DNA of 43,942 bases, taken from NCBI GenBank assembly GCA_015654795.1, contig JAATGF010000171.1:1-43942 (forward strand), read 5' to 3'. Shown here one piece after another: positions 33,707 through 43,710 of the stretch. Below the pieces are notes generated by a model, which saw only the letters and a list, made by a program, of their open reading frames with translations, was not told the DNA's origin and did not search any database. Position 1 is the stretch's first letter, and every line of letters starts with the position of its first letter. This stretch comes from Bacteroidales bacterium (lineage in GTDB: Bacteria > Bacteroidota > Bacteroidia > Bacteroidales > Prolixibacteraceae). The position numbers and the translations under genes are program-made.

Positions 33707-33772
33707 GTGTGAATGATGTAACTTTTTCACAGAAAGTTGTAACATTTTTTCTGTAAACGGAGCTAATATTTG
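33707..33772 (+). promoter_or_regulatory. Shared regulatory promoter, site A (small envelope protein)
   Basis: GTGTGAATGATGTAAC (33707-33722), then TTGTAAC (33737-33743), so GTAAC recurs exactly 21 bp later, then a TTTG core at 33769-33772. Sites B and C (34602, 40469) have the same spacings, 21 bp between repeats and 51 bp from first GTAAC to TTTG. The TTTG lies 35 bp before the ATG at 33808. The downstream repeat covers the position where a -33 element would sit, the usual place for an activator. Confidence 0.8.
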
Positions 33773-33807
33773 TGACTTAAATTATTCACTTTTAATAAAT
33801 CTGTAAA

Positions 33808-34158
33808 ATGAAAAAATTAACACTGGGTATATTGGCGGCGCTCATTTTTATACTGTTTATTCCAGGCTGCGTATATGCTGAAACGGAAAGTACGACCGTT
33901 GAAATCGCAGCAAATAAACCAGTTGCGTCAGTTGATGCGACTATTTTAGTTGCGAGGGTTGAGGCTATAAAGGCGATGGATTTTTCAACATTGAATTCAT
34001 CCGAAAAGAAAGAATTACGAAAAGAACTGCGGGCTATAAAAACTGATCTTAAAAAAAATAATAAGCGAGATATTGTTGCGACTCATGGTAATGGCGGCAT
34101 CTACCTTTCAGTAGGTGCGATCATTATTATCATCCTGCTGTTAATTCTTATTCTCTAA
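33808..34158 (+). CDS. Small envelope protein, paralogue of the protein at 40572
   Basis: A 116-residue protein with a signal peptide (MKKLTLGILAALIFILFIPG) followed by Cys21, a possible lipobox. The body has one conserved segment, EAIKAMDFSTLNSSEKKELRKELRAIK (about 52-78). It ends in a hydrophobic C-terminal helix (GGIYLSVGAIIIIILLLILIL, 96-116). The same layout and the core motif IKAMD-S-L--SEKKELRKE-R-IK recur in the 128-residue protein at 40572, so the two are paralogues. I do not recognise a named function. It shares its promoter architecture with the AraC/kinase operon, so a stress-response envelope role is the best inference. Confidence 0.8.
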   Translation: MKKLTLGILAALIFILFIPGCVYAETESTTVEIAANKPVASVDATILVARVEAIKAMDFSTLNSSEKKELRKELRAIKTDLKKNNKRDIVATHGNGGIYLSVGAIIIIILLLILIL

Positions 34159-34208
34159 TTCGTAAGGTAAAACAGTAAATAAAGTTGAAATATTTCTCTT
34201 ACATGTGG

Positions 34209-34254
34209 CTTAGGTGAACTTATTTTAAATTTAAGTTCATCTAAGTTTTTTTTT
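34209..34254 (+). terminator. Strong terminator of the small envelope protein gene
   Basis: CTTAGGTGAACTTA (34209-34222) pairs with TAAGTTCATCTAAG (34232-34245) over 14 bp including one G-U, followed by nine T residues. The rest of the gap up to 34601 has no supported gene; just before the promoter motif there is a small inverted repeat TTGTTTG/CAAACAA (34559-34579). Confidence 0.9.
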
Positions 34255-34601
34255 AAGCTAGAAAACAGAAAACGTCGTTGTTGTGATGAGCTATCAGCCG
34301 GGAAAAGTATCCCCGGAATGATTTTTCCTGTTTCGCCGGAAACAAAAGTTCCACGACTCTGATACTTGATTTATTCTCCTCTTTGTGGAGCTAACAGACA
34401 ATGTAATTGAATATTACCTAAAAAAATATACCTTGAATGGGTGAAGAATAGTTCTTATGAATTGAACTCAATATTGCGTTCATAAACATATACTGAACAA
34501 CCTTGGCTTTACGAGTGTATATAGTTAGCGAATGAATAATAATGAGATAACGGCTTAATTGTTTGCCTAAACCAAACAAAAGATATTACAAATGCGACAA
34601 T

Positions 34602-34667
34602 GTGTGAATTATGTAACTTATTGTTGAAGTTGTGTAATGTATGTTTGGTCTAAGTTGTGCATCTTTG
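34602..34667 (+). promoter_or_regulatory. Shared regulatory promoter, site B (AraC/hybrid-kinase operon)
   Basis: GTGTGAATTATGTAAC (34602-34617), second repeat GTGTAAT (34632-34638), so GTAAY recurs 21 bp later, then CATCTTTG with its TTTG at 34664-34667, 51 bp after the first GTAAC. It lies 30 bp before the TTG start of the AraC-type gene. Its presence here suggests that the system controls its own operon. Confidence 0.8.
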
Positions 34668-34697
34668 TCCGAATCTATTTAAAAAACAAAAATCTAT

Positions 34698-35279
34698 TTG
34701 AAACTCTACATCAAATACATGGTAAGCACCCGCTGTAAAATGGCGGTGAAAAATGCCTTGAAAGAGCTTGGTCTTCATTTTATCCTTGTTGATTTAGGTG
34801 AAGTGGATATCATGGAAAACATTACAGCTGAGCAACGCGAGCATCTGAAAGTTGCTTTACTCGATTCCGGACTTGAATTAATGGATGACAAACGAGCGGT
34901 TTTGATTGAAAAAATCAAAAATGTAATTGTCGAAATGGTTCACCATAACGGTGAATTAATCAAAGTAAATTTCTCGGAATATTTAAGTGGAAAACTGAAT
35001 CACGACTATACGTATCTCGCGAATTTATTTTCAGAAGTACAGGGAACGACTATTGAGCAATTCATTATCTCTCATAAAGTTGAGCGGATAAAAGAGCTGA
35101 TCATCTATGATGAATTGAACATTACAGAAATTGCATATAAGATGAATTACAGCAGTGTGGCCCATTTATCCAATCAATTTAAAAAGGTTACCGGACTCTC
35201 TCCTTCGCATTTTAAACAATTGAGGGAAAAAAGGAGAAGTCCGATTGAAGAAGTTGGTAATTCGATGGGCACAAATTAA
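34698..35279 (+). CDS. AraC-family regulator with a small ferredoxin-like (HMA-like) N-terminal domain
   Basis: A 193-residue protein. The N-terminal MKLYIKYMVSTRC resembles a heavy-metal-associated fold, but the CxxC is degenerate (Ser10-x2-Cys13), so metal binding is doubtful. Residues about 90-193 hold the AraC HTH domain: LANLFSEVQGTTIEQFIISHKVERIKELI and LNITEIAYKMNYSSVAHLSNQFKKVTGLSPSHFKQLR. The start is TTG at 34698, chosen because this places MKLYIK at the family-typical N-terminus. It sits 16 bp upstream of the hybrid kinase gene. AraC proteins often bind direct repeats 21 bp apart, matching the sites at 33707, 34602 and 40469, which makes it the prime candidate regulator of this promoter set. 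Confidence 0.87.
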   Translation: MKLYIKYMVSTRCKMAVKNALKELGLHFILVDLGEVDIMENITAEQREHLKVALLDSGLELMDDKRAVLIEKIKNVIVEMVHHNGELIKVNFSEYLSGKLNHDYTYLANLFSEVQGTTIEQFIISHKVERIKELIIYDELNITEIAYKMNYSSVAHLSNQFKKVTGLSPSHFKQLREKRRSPIEEVGNSMGTN

Positions 35280-35295
35280 TTTTTACAAAGGTTTT

Positions 35296-38200
35296 ATGAA
35301 ATTCATATTAGAAAAAAGAGTAACGCTCTTCTATTTCCTTTTAGGTGCTGCATTGGTGTCGATATTGGTATTTTTCTATTACAACAATAAAAAGGTAAAG
35401 GCGGCAAGCGATTTAGTAGAACATACACAGGAAGTACTTCGCAAAAGTGATAGCATTCTTTTGGATATACTTGACATTGAAACAGAGTCAAGAGGCTATG
35501 CATTAACGGGTAACGAAATATATTTAGCGTCATTCGACAAAAAAACAAATCTAATAAACAGCAGCCTGTCAGAGTTAGCCTCGCTTACCAAAGATAATCC
35601 AAGTCAACAGGTGCGCATAAATTCATTGAAAAATGCTGCGGACGAAAGATTGGTTTTTATAAAAAAACTGATTGAAGCCAGTAAAGAGAAAATACTGGAT
35701 GAAACAGAAAAAGCATATCTTATTGGGAATGATAAGAATCTTACCGACAAGATCAGGAGCATTATTTTAGCTGTTAACTCTGAAGAGTTTAATTTGCTAA
35801 ATGAAAGAAAAGTTGAAATTGAAAAGAACAATAAAAATTCAGAATTGATATTTTTAGTGCTTCTTGTTTTCATCATCTTTATTTTTGTACTTATTTCTAT
35901 TATTATGAAAAGTCAAAAAGTCAGGAATGATGAATTAGAAGCGTTTACCTCTTCGAAAAAATTACTTTCCAATTATTCGCTCAGCCTGATTGAAGCAAGT
36001 CTTGATCCTTTGATTACCCTCAACACCGAGGGTAAAATCACCGATATGAATGAAGCATTGGTGAACATCACGGGAATGACACGCGAAAAACTCACCGGTA
36101 CCGACTTCTTCAATTATTTCACTGAGCCACAAAAGGCGCGCGAAGTTTATAAGGAAGTGTTTGCAAAAGGATCTGCTGCCGATTCGCCACTTACGCTTCG
36201 GCATAAAAACGGCAAACTGACCGATGTATTGTTCAATGGATCGGTTTATAAAGATGATCATGGAGACGTATTGGGTATTGTAATTGTCGCCAGGGATGTT
36301 ACCGCACAAAAATTACTTTCGAAATATTCGCTTAGTCTGATTGAAGCAAGCCTTGATCCATTGATTACGATCAATACCGAGGGTAAGATAACAGATATGA
36401 ATGAGGCATTGGCAAACATTACGGGGATGACGCGCGAAGAACTCACAGACTCTGATTTCTTCAGTTATTTCACTGAACCACAGAAAGCACGTGAAGTTTA
36501 CCAGGAAGTATTCGCGAATGGATCGGTTGCCGATTCTCCACTTACACTTCGGCATAAGGACGGCAAACTAACCGATGTATTATTCAATGGGTCGGTTTAT
36601 AAAGATGATCGCGGGAATGTGCTTGGTGCGGTGGTTGTGGCAAGAGATGTTGCCGAACAAAAATGGGCAACAGAATTAAGAATTGTTAATAAAGAGCTTG
36701 CTTTTCAAAACGATGAGAAAGGAAAACGTGCAGCAGAGTTATTTATTGCCAACAAAGAACTCCTGTTTCAGAATGATGAAAAACAAAAACGGGCTGATGA
36801 ATTAAGTATTGCGAACGATGAACTTGCTTATCAAAACGATGAGAAAGAAAGACGCGCGGCAGAGTTATTCATTGCCAACAAAGAGCTCGTATTTCAAAAT
36901 GACGAAAAACAAAAACGGGCTGATGAGTTAAGTATTGCGAACGATGAACTTGCTTATCAAAATCAGGAGAAAGAGAACCGTGCAGCAGAGTTAGTTCTTG
37001 CAAACGAAGAGCTGGCCTATCAAAACGAAGAGAAAGAAAATCGTGCAGCAGAGTTAATCATAGCGAACAAGGAACTTGTATTTCAAAATGATGAAAAAGA
37101 AAAACGCGCGGCAGAATTATCGATTGCCAACAAAGAACTTGTATTTCAGAACAATGAAAAAGAAAAACGAACAGCAGAATTAATCGCTGCGGATAAGGAA
37201 TTAGTTTTTCAAATCGGCGAAAAAGAAAAGCAGGAGATTGCAAATGTTGAACTTGAGGCAATCGGCGATTCTTTAAAATTAGCTTCTCAATATTCGCTTA
37301 GTCTGATCGAAGCTATTCGTGATCCGTTGGTAACGATTAATACGGAAGGCAAGATCACCGACATGAATGAGGCGCTCGTGAGCATTACCGGCATTAAACG
37401 CCATGAACTTAAGGGTACCTACTTTTTAGATTATTTTACAGAACCGCAAAAAGCGCGTGAAGTTTACCAGGAAGTGTTTGCCAAAGGATCGGTTGCCGAT
37501 TCTCCACTTACACTTCGCCACAAGGCTGGCAAGCTGACCGATGTATTATTTAATGGATCGGTATATAAAGATGATCGTGGAGATGTATTGGGTATTGTAA
37601 TTGTCGCCAGAGATGTTACCGCACAAAAATTAGCCTCCCAATATGCAAGGAGTTTAATAGAAGCAAGTCTTGATCCACTGTTTACAATTAATCCGGCAGG
37701 AAAAATTACCGATATCAATAGAGCATCGGTAAACATAACCGGAATATCGCGCGAGAAATTAATTGGGACCGACTTTTTTGATTATTTTACGGAACCACAA
37801 AAAGCCCGCGAGATTTATCAGGAAGTTTTTGCGAATGGTTTCGTGACAGATTATCCGCTTACAATCAGGGATGGGGAACTTACCGATGTTTTGTTGAACG
37901 GTTCGGTTTATACAGACGACAGAGGAAATGTACTTGGTGTCGTTGTTGTGGCAAGAGATATAACAGACCAAAAAAGAATTGAAACAGAACTGATAGAGGC
38001 GAAAGTATTTGCTGAACTGGCGACATTAATTGCAGAAGAAGCAAAAGGCAAGGCTGAAAAGGCAACCGTAATAGCGGAAAATGCAGTAAAGGCGAAACAG
38101 CAGTTTTTGTCGAACATGAGTCATGAAATCCGTACCCCCATGAATGCGATCATCGGATTTACAAAAGTCGTGCTGAAAACAGAGCTGACATCAAAACAGA

Positions 38201-39618
38201 AAGAATATTTAACCGCGATAAAAATGTCGGGGGATTCATTGATTGTGCTTATTAACGACATTCTCGATTTGGCTAAAGTTGATGCCGGGAAAATGGTATT
38301 TCAGCAAACACCTTTCAAAATGGCATTGTCGATATCGGCCATGCTTCATTTGTTTGAGACAAAAATACAGGAGAAAAACCTTGCATTGGTTAAAGAATAC
38401 GATCATAACATTCCTGATGTTTTGGTTGGTGATCCCGTGCGTTTACACCAGATTATTCTAAATCTTGTAAGTAATGCGGTTAAGTTTACGTCAAAAGGAA
38501 AAATAACCGTAAGTGTTCGGTTACTGACCCAGGATGAGGAAAAAGTAGTTATTGAATTTTCGGTAACAGATACGGGAATCGGAATCCCGGGTGATAAGAT
38601 AGAAAGGATTTTTGAAAATTTCCAGCAGGCATCGAGCGGGACTTCAAGGCTTTATGGCGGAACAGGATTAGGACTTGCCATCGTTAAACAACTCGTAGAA
38701 CCACAGGGAGGAAGTATCAGTGTAAAAAGTAAAATTGATGAAGGTTCTACTTTTAGCTTTATATTGAGTTTTCTGAAAACAACCGACGAAGCTGAAATTG
38801 TAACAGAAATTGAGGAACAGGATACAGAAATTAAAAACATAAAAGTACTGGTGGTGGAAGACATTCCGCTCAACCAATTACTAATGAAAACATTATTGGA
38901 TGATTTCGGATTCGAACGTGATATTGCCGCCAACGGAAAAATAGCGATCGAAAGAATGAAAGAAAAAAGCTACGATGTTATTTTGATGGATTTGCAGATG
39001 CCCGAAATGAATGGGTTTGAAGCCACTGATTACATTCGCAATAAATTGAATTCCAAAATTCCGATTATCGCCTTAACAGCTGATGTAACCACTGTCGATT
39101 TGGCAAAATGCAGGGCGGTGGGGATGAATGATTACATTGCAAAGCCTGTAGACGAACGATTACTATATAATAAAATAGTTGGGTTAGTTAAAAAGCCAAC
39201 ACTTGTAGAATACGCTGAACACAATAATGATGAACAAATTGAAGGCAAAAAATCACGATGTATCGACCTGGAATATTTAATTCGCCGCACAAAATCGAAT
39301 CCGATCCTGATGATGGAAATGATTTCACTTTACCTGGAACAAACTCCACCTTTAATAAGTGCAATGCAACAAAGTTTTCAGGATAAGAACTGGAATTTAT
39401 TGTATTCAGCAGTTCATAAAATGATACCTTCATTTTCAATAATGGGTATCAATGCAGACTTTGAGAACATGGCAAAAACAATCCAGGAATTTGCCAGCAC
39501 ACAGAAACAATCTGAGGGAATAAACGACCTGGTTTTTCAGCTTGGAAACGTTTGTAATCAGGCTTGCAGGGAATTAGAAGAAGAATTATTAGAACTAAAG
39601 GAACAAAACCATGAATAA
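35296..39618 (+). CDS. Hybrid histidine kinase: CHASE3, four PAS, coiled-coil repeats, HisKA, HATPase, receiver, HPt
   Basis: A 1440-residue kinase. I start it at ATG 35296, which has AAAGG just upstream, rather than at 35245 inside the AraC gene. Domains: membrane helix 10-30; periplasmic CHASE3 (about 35-180, ILDIETESRGYALTGNE); helix 184-204; PAS1 (223-339) and PAS2 (340-456); nine 21-residue coiled-coil repeats (458-646); PAS3 (662-778) and PAS4 (779-893); HisKA with His943 (MSHEIRTP); HATPase (N1060, DTGIGIP, GGTGLGLAIV); receiver with Asp1232 and Lys1283; C-terminal HPt with His1374 (AVHKMIPSFSIMG). The full relay His-Asp-His is present, so it probably passes phosphate to the one-domain regulator that overlaps its 3' end. 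Confidence 0.93.
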   Translation: MKFILEKRVTLFYFLLGAALVSILVFFYYNNKKVKAASDLVEHTQEVLRKSDSILLDILDIETESRGYALTGNEIYLASFDKKTNLINSSLSELASLTKDNPSQQVRINSLKNAADERLVFIKKLIEASKEKILDETEKAYLIGNDKNLTDKIRSIILAVNSEEFNLLNERKVEIEKNNKNSELIFLVLLVFIIFIFVLISIIMKSQKVRNDELEAFTSSKKLLSNYSLSLIEASLDPLITLNTEGKITDMNEALVNITGMTREKLTGTDFFNYFTEPQKAREVYKEVFAKGSAADSPLTLRHKNGKLTDVLFNGSVYKDDHGDVLGIVIVARDVTAQKLLSKYSLSLIEASLDPLITINTEGKITDMNEALANITGMTREELTDSDFFSYFTEPQKAREVYQEVFANGSVADSPLTLRHKDGKLTDVLFNGSVYKDDRGNVLGAVVVARDVAEQKWATELRIVNKELAFQNDEKGKRAAELFIANKELLFQNDEKQKRADELSIANDELAYQNDEKERRAAELFIANKELVFQNDEKQKRADELSIANDELAYQNQEKENRAAELVLANEELAYQNEEKENRAAELIIANKELVFQNDEKEKRAAELSIANKELVFQNNEKEKRTAELIAADKELVFQIGEKEKQEIANVELEAIGDSLKLASQYSLSLIEAIRDPLVTINTEGKITDMNEALVSITGIKRHELKGTYFLDYFTEPQKAREVYQEVFAKGSVADSPLTLRHKAGKLTDVLFNGSVYKDDRGDVLGIVIVARDVTAQKLASQYARSLIEASLDPLFTINPAGKITDINRASVNITGISREKLIGTDFFDYFTEPQKAREIYQEVFANGFVTDYPLTIRDGELTDVLLNGSVYTDDRGNVLGVVVVARDITDQKRIETELIEAKVFAELATLIAEEAKGKAEKATVIAENAVKAKQQFLSNMSHEIRTPMNAIIGFTKVVLKTELTSKQKEYLTAIKMSGDSLIVLINDILDLAKVDAGKMVFQQTPFKMALSISAMLHLFETKIQEKNLALVKEYDHNIPDVLVGDPVRLHQIILNLVSNAVKFTSKGKITVSVRLLTQDEEKVVIEFSVTDTGIGIPGDKIERIFENFQQASSGTSRLYGGTGLGLAIVKQLVEPQGGSISVKSKIDEGSTFSFILSFLKTTDEAEIVTEIEEQDTEIKNIKVLVVEDIPLNQLLMKTLLDDFGFERDIAANGKIAIERMKEKSYDVILMDLQMPEMNGFEATDYIRNKLNSKIPIIALTADVTTVDLAKCRAVGMNDYIAKPVDERLLYNKIVGLVKKPTLVEYAEHNNDEQIEGKKSRCIDLEYLIRRTKSNPILMMEMISLYLEQTPPLISAMQQSFQDKNWNLLYSAVHKMIPSFSIMGINADFENMAKTIQEFASTQKQSEGINDLVFQLGNVCNQACRELEEELLELKEQNHE
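36667..37233 (+). repeat. Nine 63-bp tandem repeats encoding a coiled coil
   Basis: Inside the hybrid kinase, residues 458-646 are nine consecutive 21-residue units of the form AAEL-IANKEL-FQNDEKEKR. The 21-residue period is three heptads, so the segment should form a long coiled coil between PAS2 and PAS3. Alternating unit types (ADELSIANDELAYQND versus AAELFIANKELVFQND) suggest duplication of two-unit blocks. Confidence 0.92.
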
Positions 39619-40042
39619 CAAAAAAATCAAGCTTTTTTTGGTTGATGACGATGCCGTATTTTTAAAATCATTAGAGATTGATTTTCTCGAACGTGCTGAT
39701 TTTATAATTGAAACATTTGCAACGGGCGAACTTTGCATGGCAAATTTATCACATGAGCCTGATGTGATCATCCTGGATTATTATCTTGACGGGATTGATA
39801 CCACTGCGATGAACGGAATAGAAACATTAGATAAGATTAAGGCTTATAATCAGGATATTCCTGTTATAATACTTTCTTCGCAGGACAAAATTGATGTAGC
39901 GGTAAACTGTATGCATCACCGGGCTTTCGACTATGTTGTGAAAAGCGAAACAGCCTTTGTACGTTTGCAACAAATCATTACAACCATTTTCCGTTACAAA
40001 AAAATGGAAAAAGAATTAAGCTGGTACATGCAGAGAATGTAG
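39611..40042 (+). CDS. Single-domain response regulator (CheY-like)
   Basis: A 143-residue receiver-only protein. Acidic pocket: VDDD (11-14); phosphoacceptor Asp56 (VIILDYYLDG); conserved Ser in IILSS (87-90); Lys111 (VVKSE). A short helical tail (IFRYKKMEKELSWYMQRM) follows with no DNA-binding domain. It overlaps the hybrid kinase gene by 8 bp, so it is translationally coupled and likely receives phosphate from the kinase HPt domain. With no output domain it must act by binding another protein, the AraC-type regulator being an obvious candidate. Confidence 0.92.
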   Translation: MNNKKIKLFLVDDDAVFLKSLEIDFLERADFIIETFATGELCMANLSHEPDVIILDYYLDGIDTTAMNGIETLDKIKAYNQDIPVIILSSQDKIDVAVNCMHHRAFDYVVKSETAFVRLQQIITTIFRYKKMEKELSWYMQRM

Positions 40043-40468
40043 TTTCGGGCAAACAATTTGTTCCTTTTTGAGGACTACTTTTCTACAATACCATATCACC
40101 TACGGAGAAAGACAAGATCGATAAGTTAATGGATAATAGATATTTGTGAAAATCTTATTTTATTCAAAAAACTTTAGCAGTTTGATATCAACAAAAAAAC
40201 CTAATCTTATTAAACAACATAAAATGAGGTTAGGGATTGAGAAGGATAATCTTTGTTACTGAGGTTCAAGAGAATCAGAAAATAAGGTTTTTCCAGGCAG
40301 GAAAAGGTTCACGCAAAGGTACAGAGATACAAAGCGCGGAAAAACCTTATTTACCTTTTTCCCAATTCTTCAAATGAATACGGTTATTCGTCCGTAGTAA
40401 TTCAATTGAACCAGGATATTTAAAAGAGGCTGCCGCAAGGTTAGCCTCTTTTCCTTTATACATAGCAT
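40043..40468. other. Gene-free gap after the response regulator
   Basis: No supported gene. It contains a stretch TTCACGCAAAGGTACAGAGA (40307-40326) with ATACAAAGCGCGG after it, of a sort often seen dispersed in Bacteroidota intergenic DNA, and ends with the hairpin at 40422-40452. Confidence 0.45.
40422..40452 (+). terminator. Terminator hairpin ahead of promoter site C
   Basis: AAAAGAGGCT (40422-40431) pairs perfectly with AGCCTCTTTT (40443-40452). It lies 380 bp after the response regulator stop, so it may end a long 3' untranslated region or insulate site C from read-through. Confidence 0.7.
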
Positions 40469-40534
40469 GTGTGAATGATGTAACTAATTGCAAGAATTTT
40501 GTAACGCTTTTGGGGTGAAAGGTAGTGATATTTG
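40469..40534 (+). promoter_or_regulatory. Shared regulatory promoter, site C (paralogous small protein and lmo0937-type gene)
   Basis: GTGTGAATGATGTAAC (40469-40484) is identical to site A over all 16 bases. TTTTGTAAC ends at 40505, giving GTAAC again 21 bp later, and the TTTG core lies at 40531-40534, 51 bp after the first GTAAC and 37 bp before the ATG at 40572. Confidence 0.8.
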
Positions 40535-40571: not shown

Positions 40572-40958
40572 ATGAAGAAGTTCACGTTTTGCATAATGAC
40601 AGCATTCATGTTATTGTCAATTATTCCCACAAAATTGAATGCGGCGACAGAAACGAAAGCAGTATCAGTTGCCGCAATTACAACTGCTGAATCAGTAAAA
40701 GACAATGCTGATCTTGCCAGATTAAACGAAATCAAGGCGATGGATCTATCGGCACTTAGTCGGTCGGAAAAGAAAGAACTGCGTAAAGAAGTTCGCGAGA
40801 TAAAAGATAGTCAGGACGGCAGAGGAAGATATCATCAGAGACATGGGAGGCATCACGACGGAGGTAATGACTATAATAGTCATCGCGGTGGCGGAACAGT
40901 CTATTTTATGGGTGGTGGCGGATTGCTTGTAATAATCCTGATCCTTCTTTTGATTTGA
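40572..40958 (+). CDS. Small envelope protein, paralogue of the protein at 33808
   Basis: A 128-residue protein: signal peptide (cleavage near LNAA, residue 25), the conserved segment RLNEIKAMDLSALSRSEKKELRKEVREIK (about 50-78), then a Gly/His/Arg-rich stretch (GRGRYHQRHGRHHDGGNDYN) absent from the paralogue, and a C-terminal hydrophobic helix (GGGGLLVIILILLLI). The His-rich stretch could bind metal. It is followed after 58 bp, with no terminator, by the 51-residue lmo0937-type gene, so both should be transcribed from site C. Function unknown. Confidence 0.8.
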   Translation: MKKFTFCIMTAFMLLSIIPTKLNAATETKAVSVAAITTAESVKDNADLARLNEIKAMDLSALSRSEKKELRKEVREIKDSQDGRGRYHQRHGRHHDGGNDYNSHRGGGTVYFMGGGGLLVIILILLLI

Positions 40959-41016: not shown

Positions 41017-41172
41017 ATGGGAAATTTACTTTACCTCGTAGCCGTCATATTAATTATTGCATGGCTCATCGGATTTGTAGGTTATGGTACCGGAGGCATC
41101 ATTCACATTCTGCTCGTTATCGCAGTTATTGCTGTTTTGGTGAGAATTATCCAAGGGAATAGGGTACTGTAA
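41017..41172 (+). CDS. lmo0937-family small membrane protein
   Basis: A 51-residue protein, almost entirely membrane-embedded: MGNLLYLVAVILIIAWLIGF, then VGYGTGG, then a second helix IIHILLVIAVIAVLVRII ending QGNRVL. The two-helix hairpin with GGxIHILLVIAVI matches the lmo0937 family (DUF5670), found widely near stress-response genes. No function is established. It probably shares the transcript of the paralogous envelope protein at 40572 and so belongs to the promoter set controlled through site C. Confidence 0.85.
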   Translation: MGNLLYLVAVILIIAWLIGFVGYGTGGIIHILLVIAVIAVLVRIIQGNRVL

Positions 41173-41409: not shown

Positions 41410-41628
41410 ATGTCAAGAAAACCTATAGGAATTGTCCTCATTATTATTGGGGTAATTATGATTATTTACACGGGATTCAACTATGTAACTACTGAAAAAG
41501 TGGTTGACTTAGGGCCGCTAAAAATAAACGCTGAAAAGAATCATCCAGTACAATGGTCTCCTATTGTGGGCGTCATATTACTTGTTGGCGGTATTGTGGT
41601 TCTGGTGACAAGCAAGGATAAAGGTTAA
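41410..41628 (+). CDS. Small two-helix membrane protein (DUF3185-like)
   Basis: A 72-residue protein with two membrane helices: IGIVLIIIGVIMIIYTGFNYV (about 6-26) and IVGVILLVGGIVVLVTS (52-68). The 25-residue loop VDLGPLKINAEKNHPVQWSP carries the pattern seen in small DUF3185-like membrane proteins of Bacteroidota. No signal peptide is needed. It stands alone between repeat copy 4 and a terminator-like hairpin. I do not know its role; its position next to the lmo0937-type gene suggests a related stress or envelope function, but it lacks the shared promoter motif. Confidence 0.7.
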   Translation: MSRKPIGIVLIIIGVIMIIYTGFNYVTTEKVVDLGPLKINAEKNHPVQWSPIVGVILLVGGIVVLVTSKDKG

Positions 41629-42117: not shown

Positions 42118-43710
42118 ATGTTAGTAGCTGTGACCAGAAAAAAATTTACATTTTCTCCCGATTCATCAAGAGTAATCGCCCGTTTTCTATATTTGAATGA
42201 TGAAAGATCGGCTGACATAATCAGAAAGGTATTGGCAATGCCCAAAAAAGAGGTAAGTATTGCCATGAGTCAGTTACTCAGAGGGTATTCGCGGCGACAC
42301 AGGAATATTTCACGAATTTTTGATAAACATTTTGCTAAACTCGCACCCATATTTGATAAGATTGAGGTGAACGAAGAGGATCTTAGCGCCGCCCAGAAGA
42401 CACTGATAGGCTCGTACTTCACAATGGAATATTCCATCGAATCAGCTGCTTTTTTTAATCCATCCATTATAGAAGATCCCGATCAGTCAGAAATAGGAAC
42501 TGATGAAAAAAGGGTGATTTTTAGTTTCCGAGCCACCGGCGAAGGGCATATTTCCTCTATCGTTTTCCGTTCTGGAATTCTTGACAAGAATAATAACCTC
42601 ACGATCGATCCTGTTGGTAAAATGCTGGCCGAAGCTGATGTAATCAAACGAAATTCTTACGAGAAAAAAGCTTTCCGTGAGAAACTTGATGAAATGCAAA
42701 GCCATGGGAATATTATTTCACCTGCTATTCTGGATAAACATGATGAAAAACCTGATCAGGGAAATGTTATTCCTCCTGTTGTACTGGATATGCAGAGTGA
42801 GACTCCTGACCATAAAAATGTTGTTTCTCCGGCTTTTATTCTCGATAAACTTGGTGATAATTTTACCTATGGCGATCTGATGAGGAATATTGAAATAGCC
42901 AAAAAAGGTTCTGATCTTACCGAAGATCAGGTAAAAATAATCAATCAAATGATGTGGCTGGCTTCCTCGCACTACGAGATTTATTTCTCGATTGATTCAG
43001 CTATTTCCGAGAGAGTTATTTTCCCAATTTCAGCAACTGAGCAAGGAGGTATTGAAGATGCCCGTTTTGTTAAATTCACTGATGAAAAGGGTGAAATAAC
43101 TTATTATGCAACCTATACTGCTTACGATGGGATGAATATTCTTCCGAAATTAATCAAAACAACCGATTTTTATAATTTCCAGATATTACCTATCAATGGT
43201 GAGGTTGCCCGAAACAAAGGCATGGCCCTTTTCCCCAGAAAGATCAACGGAAAGTATGCAATGCTGTGTAGGATTGATGGTGTAAATAATTATATTGCTT
43301 ATTCTGATAGTATCAATATATGGCATGAAGCGAAAATAATACAGGAGCCCAAATACCCATGGGAACTTGTGCAAATAGGCAATGCCGGTTCTCCGATTGA
43401 AACGGAAGATGGTTGGTTGGTTATTACCCATGCGGTTGGTTCAATGAGGGAATACACGCTGGGAGCATCCCTGTATGAACTTGAAAATCCGGAGAAAGAA
43501 ATTGGAAGACTGCGCAGCCCGTTGATGGTGCCAAACGAGTTTGAAAGAGAGGGTTATGTACCAAATGTAATTTATTCATGTGGATCTATTGTTCATAATA
43601 ACAATCTAATTATTCCATATGCAATGTCCGATCATTCATCTACTTATGCTACTGTTGATCTTCGGGAACTACTGAACGTGCTGAAGACCTCAGGAACCAA
43701 TGACAAGTAA
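42118..43710 (+). CDS. GH130-family glycoside phosphorylase or hydrolase
   Basis: A 530-residue cytoplasmic protein with the five-bladed beta-propeller of GH130, which act on beta-mannosides, mostly as phosphorylases. Seen: the N-terminal region MLVAVTRKKFTFSPDSSRVI; YFTMEYSIESAAFFNPSI (100-117); SFRATGEGHISSIVFR (136-151); FVKFTDEKGEITYYATYTAYDG; MALFPRKINGKYAMLCRIDG; GSPIETEDGWLVITHAVG; and YVPNVIYSCGSIVHNNNLIIPYAMSD near the end. Residues 197-250 are three imperfect 18-residue repeats inserted in a linker. No signal peptide. No glycosyltransferase or mannose-processing partner lies next to it, so its substrate is not indicated. It is followed by a strong terminator. Confidence 0.88.
   Translation: MLVAVTRKKFTFSPDSSRVIARFLYLNDERSADIIRKVLAMPKKEVSIAMSQLLRGYSRRHRNISRIFDKHFAKLAPIFDKIEVNEEDLSAAQKTLIGSYFTMEYSIESAAFFNPSIIEDPDQSEIGTDEKRVIFSFRATGEGHISSIVFRSGILDKNNNLTIDPVGKMLAEADVIKRNSYEKKAFREKLDEMQSHGNIISPAILDKHDEKPDQGNVIPPVVLDMQSETPDHKNVVSPAFILDKLGDNFTYGDLMRNIEIAKKGSDLTEDQVKIINQMMWLASSHYEIYFSIDSAISERVIFPISATEQGGIEDARFVKFTDEKGEITYYATYTAYDGMNILPKLIKTTDFYNFQILPINGEVARNKGMALFPRKINGKYAMLCRIDGVNNYIAYSDSINIWHEAKIIQEPKYPWELVQIGNAGSPIETEDGWLVITHAVGSMREYTLGASLYELENPEKEIGRLRSPLMVPNEFEREGYVPNVIYSCGSIVHNNNLIIPYAMSDHSSTYATVDLRELLNVLKTSGTNDK
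42706..42867 (+). repeat. Three 54-bp imperfect tandem repeats within the GH130 gene
   Basis: They encode three 18-residue units, GNIISPAILDKHDEKPDQ, GNVIPPVVLDMQSETPDH and KNVVSPAFILDKLGDNFT (residues 197-250). The last unit is the one that resembles the linker of ordinary GH130 proteins; the first two look like added copies. Confidence 0.8.

Follow-up and report, generated by a model that had tools for sequence, protein, structure and literature searches.

A 21-bp direct repeat at a fixed distance from a primary-sigma-type -7 element precedes genes in Bacteroidota and is linked to a small AraC-family protein

How do three separate genes in one stretch of Bacteroidales DNA come to share an almost identical upstream sequence, and which protein would read it? 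The stretch, hereafter the window, is the whole 43,942 nucleotides of contig JAATGF010000171.1 (assembly GCA_015654795.1, Prolixibacteraceae), and an earlier note made from its letters alone had pointed to three places with a common 16-base box, followed by a second GTAAC or GTAAT 21 bp after the first and by TTTG 51 bp after it. Pattern and profile scans place these direct repeats on the plus strand: site A at 33707..33743 (left half 33707-33722, right half 33728-33743), site B at 34602..34638 (34602-34617 and 34623-34638) and site C at 40469..40505 (40469-40484 and 40490-40505), with the downstream elements AATATTTG (33765..33772, plus strand), CATCTTTG (34660..34667, plus strand) and GATATTTG (40527..40534, plus strand), respectively. 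When re-read to the base, the coordinates, the identity of the box in A and C over all 16 bases and its single difference in B proved exact, as did both spacings: the second half-site reads GTAAC at A, GTAAT at B and GTAAC at C, and TTTG begins at 33769, 34664 and 40531. The pattern GTGTGAATKATGTAAC-N16-GTAAY matched the window three times (33707, 34602 and 40469) and never matched in 100 dinucleotide shuffles. A 70-column profile, from which the three window sites were excluded and in which other sites of the same genome were included, scored them at 56.3, 58.5 and 59.5 bits, with a runner-up at -14.2 and a best score of -4.8 in the reversed window. The three-site observation is real.

The architecture recurs in the rest of the genome, for which a 3.7-Mb assembly, 69% complete, was available. 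A long pattern at up to three mismatches gave 10 matches (three in the window, four on contig C41 and one each on C100, C137 and C72, the last with 3 mismatches) and none in reversed controls, while the 16-base box alone at up to two mismatches gave 13 against 2 in reversed controls. Nine of these 13 show the architecture, one of the nine with TTTG one base early and another with GTAAA as its second half. The other four (on C69, C77 and C141, and at 11766 on C41) look like chance matches and were set aside. Across an order sample of 149 genomes from 119 families, the double box at up to one mismatch was found at 145 places in 31 genomes, with none in the reversed control. The box together with the -7 element, at the same limit, was found in 13 of 395 phylum genomes, with none in the controls, which makes it sparse outside the order at this limit. 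Exact matching against named genomes gave at least 117 stretches; among the 80 matches listed, the labels are Bacteroidota or lower taxa except for one Ignavibacteriota MAG and "uncultured bacterium" records, and the isolates are Flavobacterium xueshanense, Emticicia aquatica, Robiginitalea sp. and Sunxiuqinia indica. The match in the MAG labelled Ignavibacteriota (L206) is an exact box-plus-promoter match and could reflect transfer or mis-binning. The tens of hits expected from a genome scan were not seen: box genomes hold 1 to 12 matches each at up to one mismatch. A separate scoring step over the genomes took at most 8 candidates per genome. Clustering of boxes on a single contig was also seen in other genomes (G145 C53, G062 C85, G119 C23 and G138 C4).

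The period of the repeat is fixed at 21 bp, in support of the earlier reading as a direct repeat of two helical turns. When gaps of 4 to 34 were allowed between the two parts of the pattern, 64 of 67 matches fell at gap 16. Of the three exceptions, two are extra matches at sites where a gap-16 match exists as well, and one has GTAAA in the gap-16 position. The +21 partner, at up to one mismatch, accompanies 51 of 52 exact left boxes, and the remaining one has TATAAA at the partner place and TATCTTTG at the -7 place. The core that is actually repeated reads AAT..TGTAAY. Columns 5, 7 and 10-14 carry the same base in both halves in 84-100% of sites; agreement is lower at column 6 (54%), column 9 (41%) and column 15 (51%), and the GTGTG part, where it drops to 6-24%, belongs to the left half only. 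The bases between the shared elements had been described as unrelated, which is not wholly so: over the 145 sites several are kept, namely T at +19 (85%), A at +26 (85%), T at +28 (90%), T at +29 (81%) and T at +40 (76%), and the left half is preceded by A at -3 (74%), A at -2 (92%) and T at -1 (76%).

The downstream element is a sigma-A-type (primary-sigma) -7 element of the TAnnTTTG form. Counted from the start of the box, TT stands at +62/63 in 144 of the 145 sites, A at +59 in 93% and TTTG in 95 of the 145;.A..TTTG stands at offset 62 in 91 sites, at 61 in six and at no other offset from 56 to 69. As the double-box search did not demand this element, its presence is an independent test, and in a second set of 65 further boxes from named genomes TT is at +62 in 61. 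The full TAnnTTTG is seen in only 42 of the 145 sites, T being the weak base. The suggestion that the downstream half-site occupies the place of the -33 element is likewise supported. In PMC7366714 and PMC9723704, primary-sigma promoters of Bacteroidota are described with TAnnTTTG at -7 and TTTG near -33. The present sites share with them a -7 element, (t)AmCTTTG, at a fixed place, and differ in having a predicted AraC half-site where the -33 TTTG would be. By direct reading the -33 TTTG is absent from all three window sites. Its absence from the 145 sites adds no evidence, because the search pattern itself fixes the -33 bases, and since the pattern thereby excludes TTTG and F. johnsoniae yielded no -33 motif at all (PMC7366714), the missing TTTG is weak evidence.

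The sites lie before genes and on the coding strand, as the earlier note had predicted: 109 of 145 sites have a gene-like start 15-105 nt past TTTG. In the opposite direction the same holds for 12 of 145, and of 2900 places drawn at random from the same loci 293 have such a start. Six of the 145 have no ATG ORF of 45 aa within reach, one of these being at a contig end. The median distance from TTTG to ATG is 44 bases. If the register given in PMC9723704 applies, in which the -7 box lies at -12 to -5, transcription would start at the fifth base after TTTG and the leader would be about 36 nt long; the start 6-8 bp after TTTG proposed before is near this register and differs from it.

Site B precedes the gene of a 193-aa AraC-family protein with a TTG start (34698..35279, plus strand), which is the candidate activator and would be autoregulated through this site. 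Its C-terminus matches HTH_18 in Pfam (E 5.8e-16) and contains the double helix-turn-helix of the AraC/XylS family. The predicted structure (mean pLDDT 82.9) combines an N-terminal domain of ferredoxin-like beta-alpha-beta-beta-alpha-beta fold, as in HMA domains, with the C-terminal AraC DNA-binding domain. In a PDB fold search with this model AraC-family domains rank top, and the N-terminus gives weak fold matches to Atx1-like copper chaperones (E 0.02-0.05, TM by target 0.61-0.65); a sequence search of solved structures returned 6 matches, all to the AraC domain, and no NCBIfam family scored above its cut-off. The CxxC motif is absent from the N-terminus, which reads S-T-R-C in the window protein. 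The first Cys of the motif is replaced by Ser in 41 and retained in 16 of 58 non-paralogue rows, and is Cys in 18 of 18 paralogues, while Cys13 is invariant among 16 aligned homologues. This combination of an invariant Cys13 with Ser in place of the first CxxC Cys suggests that the N-terminus may be a changed metal or thiol sensor. The aligned start codons are TTG in 29 rows, ATG in 29 and GTG in 4, and a weak start codon seems to be kept.

Occurrence of the box is linked to this AraC subfamily. In the order sample an AraC protein of at least 200 bits is found in 25 of 31 box genomes and 9 of 118 others (p 1.5e-15), and with one genome per family in 17 of 21 and 7 of 98 (p 1e-11). The phylum sample gives 9 of 13 against 43 of 382 at the same score (p 3e-6), and 8 of 13 against 10 of 382 at 250 bits or more (p 4e-9), a threshold picked afterwards. 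The link extends to position: box genomes hold 39 AraC genes of at least 200 bits, of which 15 have a box within 200 bp and 30 have one within 10 kb. For 15 more distant homologues (130-200 bits) these counts are 0 and 3, and for 13 below 130 bits they are 1 and 1, the single case being an AraC piece at a contig end. Before the AraC start, a box at up to two mismatches lies at -85 to -113 in 12 rows and at -198 in one; in 16 rows it lies over the AraC stop codon, the GTG of the box being the last codon and TGA the stop. Some of the loci in these placement counts were fetched for their boxes, and the fair comparison is that of loci chosen by AraC similarity alone, among which a box lies within 250 bp in 10 of 26 rows against 1 of 19 paralogue rows. 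These 26 rows stand for 30 top-hit loci because of excluded rows (L048, L078 and L167_MVCS in this group, in addition to L257_PIFYYK75, L302_DFSIVG144 and the duplicate L002, which were left out of the placement, CxxC and AraC-similarity comparisons alike).

The strongest test of the link is that of drift. Of 19 AraC loci from genomes without a box match, 17 hold a place that beats the best of 20 reversed loci, and 14 of these 17 places are, by reading of coordinates, within 250 bp of the AraC gene; L324 and L335 showed no drifted box when scored in this way. Box and AraC protein have drifted jointly, the box letters having become, for example, TTTTTAATTATATAAT in L325 and CTGTGATATATGTAAG in L331 and L337. 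Drifted boxes adjoin the AraC genes in L325, L326, L331, L337, L342 and L343, which could be used to pair half-site letters with AraC residues. The correspondence is incomplete in both directions. An AraC protein of at least 200 bits was not found in 6 of the 31 box genomes (G004, G031, G046, G140, G107 and G122), of which G046 has 4 sites, G107 has 10, together with a 65-residue AraC piece, 54% identical, behind a box at a contig end, and G122 has one poor site. Conversely, no box was seen at the mismatch limits used in nine order genomes that have the AraC protein, nor in most of the phylum genomes that have it. The box-linked proteins do not form one clean clade, with 19 label changes against a shuffled mean of 26.1 on a quick tree with many open forks, many rows of which were fetched because they bear boxes. 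The AraC places used numbered 117, down to 87 bits plus one of 68, with weaker rows matching only the HTH part excluded; the tree kept 79 rows, after removal of those shorter than 165 aa, longer than 260 aa or containing X, and of copies under another locus.

Downstream of the AraC gene are a CHASE3-PAS hybrid histidine kinase with a receiver (35296..39618, plus strand; the ORF is open from TTG 35245, and ATG 35296 is the likelier start) and a stand-alone receiver protein (39611..40042, plus strand), in which only the receiver domain was found. The three genes probably form one operon. The AraC-kinase gene order recurs: in 24 of 58 AraC rows a kinase domain is matched on the same strand no more than 6 kb downstream, and 8 rows show the receiver too; the weaker matches may be other kinases, and many AraC loci are too short to decide this. 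No DNA-binding domain was detected in the receiver or, among its ten best Pfam families, in the kinase ORF (35245-39618).

Based on these observations we consider it probable that the box, with its -7 element, is the promoter site of a class II-type activator, that the activator is the small AraC protein, and that it serves both its own operon and a scattered regulon. Two AraC monomers would sit on the same side of the helix, one on each half-site of the 21-bp direct repeat and with the downstream half over the -33 region, and would together bring RNA polymerase carrying the primary sigma factor to the fixed -7 box. The protein would thereby control the genes for itself, the hybrid kinase and the receiver, as well as scattered genes of stress and envelope type, and the signal would come either from the kinase/receiver pair or from the N-terminal domain with the conserved Cys13. 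Binding of the box by this protein, activation and the source of the signal are inferred. A further reading concerns the sign of the effect, namely that the protein binds the box and represses, with transcription coming from elsewhere; a half-site at the -33 place and at an exact distance from the -7 element is, however, what class II activation would give, and we hold repression to be very unlikely.

It is also conceivable, although in our view unlikely, that another DNA-binding regulator, such as an HTCS-type AraC domain, a LytTR protein or another response regulator, binds the box, the AraC protein being a mere target or neighbour. LytTR proteins bind direct repeats of about 21-bp period. 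In favour of this reading, many of the AraC genes are preceded by a box, as would be expected of targets, a kinase and receiver adjoin the AraC gene, and some box genomes have no strong AraC match. Nevertheless, the adjoining kinase and receiver have no DNA-binding domain by Pfam, the AraC gene is a neighbour and not a target where the box overlies its stop codon, and the box letters drift in AraC loci that keep the box places. The remaining readings were rejected. An alternative (ECF) sigma promoter with GTAAC as its -35 box is suggested by the resemblance of that motif to ECF -35 elements, but we know of no 37-bp two-half site as a feature of such promoters, and the downstream.AmCTTTG is primary-sigma-like, CTTTG standing where the F. 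psychrophilum ECF-type motif (PMC9723704) has a CGT-type -10 box; we allow this reading a very slight chance. A self-spreading mobile repeat or RNA element would explain why one genome holds near-identical copies at several places, and yet it has next to no chance of being correct: conservation is confined to about -4..+40 and +56..+66, with differing flanks and spacer, the orientation to genes is fixed, no Rfam family scored at or above its gathering threshold in the window, and the box precedes the -7 element and would therefore be missing from a transcript made from this promoter.

If the AraC protein is the activator, its targets in the window include two small proteins, one of 116 aa behind site A (33808..34158, plus strand), with, by eye, an N-terminal signal-like stretch and a hydrophobic C-terminal tail and with no Pfam match, and one of 128 aa behind site C (40572..40958, plus strand); both fall into one cluster with a box-led gene on contig C41 of the same genome. 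The latter is followed by genes for a 51-aa DUF5670 protein (41017..41172, plus strand) and a 72-aa membrane-type protein (41410..41628, plus strand), both probably on the same transcript, and by a GH130 gene (42118-43710). A cluster with a DUF5670 member stands directly behind boxes in 5 other genomes, the 72-aa protein is 39% identical over 69 positions to a directly box-led protein of G136 (L124), and GH130 genes follow boxes in G140 and G069. Single-link grouping of 139 ORFs downstream of boxes gave 62 groups, the largest being ice-binding-domain (14 sites in 10 genomes), CsbD-like (10 in 9), OmpA-like (10 in 10) and AraC (7 in 7) proteins. Other scanned members or single ORFs match DUF5670, hybrid kinases, Usp, DUF6600, MlaE, YtxH, SOD, DnaJ, rubrerythrin-like, DUF3943 and GH130 families, one to three members having been scanned per group and several scanned ORFs being without a family. 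By gene content these families suggest a regulon of stress-response character, in which several box-led targets are not stress genes.

Similar arrangements are known in other systems. At araBAD of E. coli, AraC binds two half-sites 21 bp apart, the downstream one touching the -35 region; the present sites share this spacing and differ in sequence, in the sigma factor and -7 element, and in that the protein has no arabinose-binding domain. The sigma-B and sigma-S general stress regulons include CsbD, Usp, YtxH, small membrane proteins, SOD and DnaJ, target families similar to those seen here, where control would instead be by an activator with the primary sigma factor. For the hybrid two-component systems (HTCS) of Bacteroides, PMC3878776 describes an AraC-type domain and direct repeats with a period averaging 21 bp, HTCS_Man having two 16-bp sites with a 5-bp spacer. 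An AraC-type DNA-binding domain and a repeat of about 21 bp are thus common to both. However, HTCS (PMC3878776) unite sensor, kinase, receiver and AraC domain in a single polypeptide, while here the AraC protein is a separate 193-aa chain with an HMA-like N-terminus and no HTH was found among the ten best Pfam families of the kinase ORF (35245-39618); the HTCS described there control polysaccharide genes, and the targets here are largely of stress and envelope type. The promoter logic, being that of AraC-type regulators in Bacteroides (PMC3878776), is therefore already known in kind, and the earlier proposal of an undescribed promoter class is not supported as regards the architecture. Searches of the open-access PMC literature found no description of the box, the regulator or the regulon, which does not prove that none exists; as far as these searches show, a small stand-alone AraC protein with an HMA-like N-terminus, a repeat coupled so rigidly to the -7 element and a broad regulon of stress- and envelope-type genes in many families are undescribed.

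To our knowledge Bacteroidota have neither sigma-B nor sigma-S. We tentatively raise the possibility, which we rate somewhat below an even chance, that the system described here provides much of the phylum with its missing general stress response, in which an HMA-like/AraC activator, under the influence of a CHASE3-PAS hybrid kinase, a lone receiver and a conserved cysteine, would take the part of sigma-B/sigma-S through one rigid promoter architecture. With a box that can be found by a simple pattern and a named likely regulator, regulon members can be listed at once in many genomes, many small proteins of unknown function can be grouped by their shared regulation, and the master-regulator hypothesis becomes testable.

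Two further observations concern the arrangement of box-led genes. Contig C41 (L014) of the same genome carries a box-led cluster of DUF6600 and small coiled-coil-like proteins, beside which are ORFs resembling, by eye, DnaJ, CbpM, MarC and L,D-transpeptidase. In L195, L209 and L227 a stretch of about 180 bp holds two boxes on opposite strands, pointing away from each other, an arrangement that would suit divergent genes.
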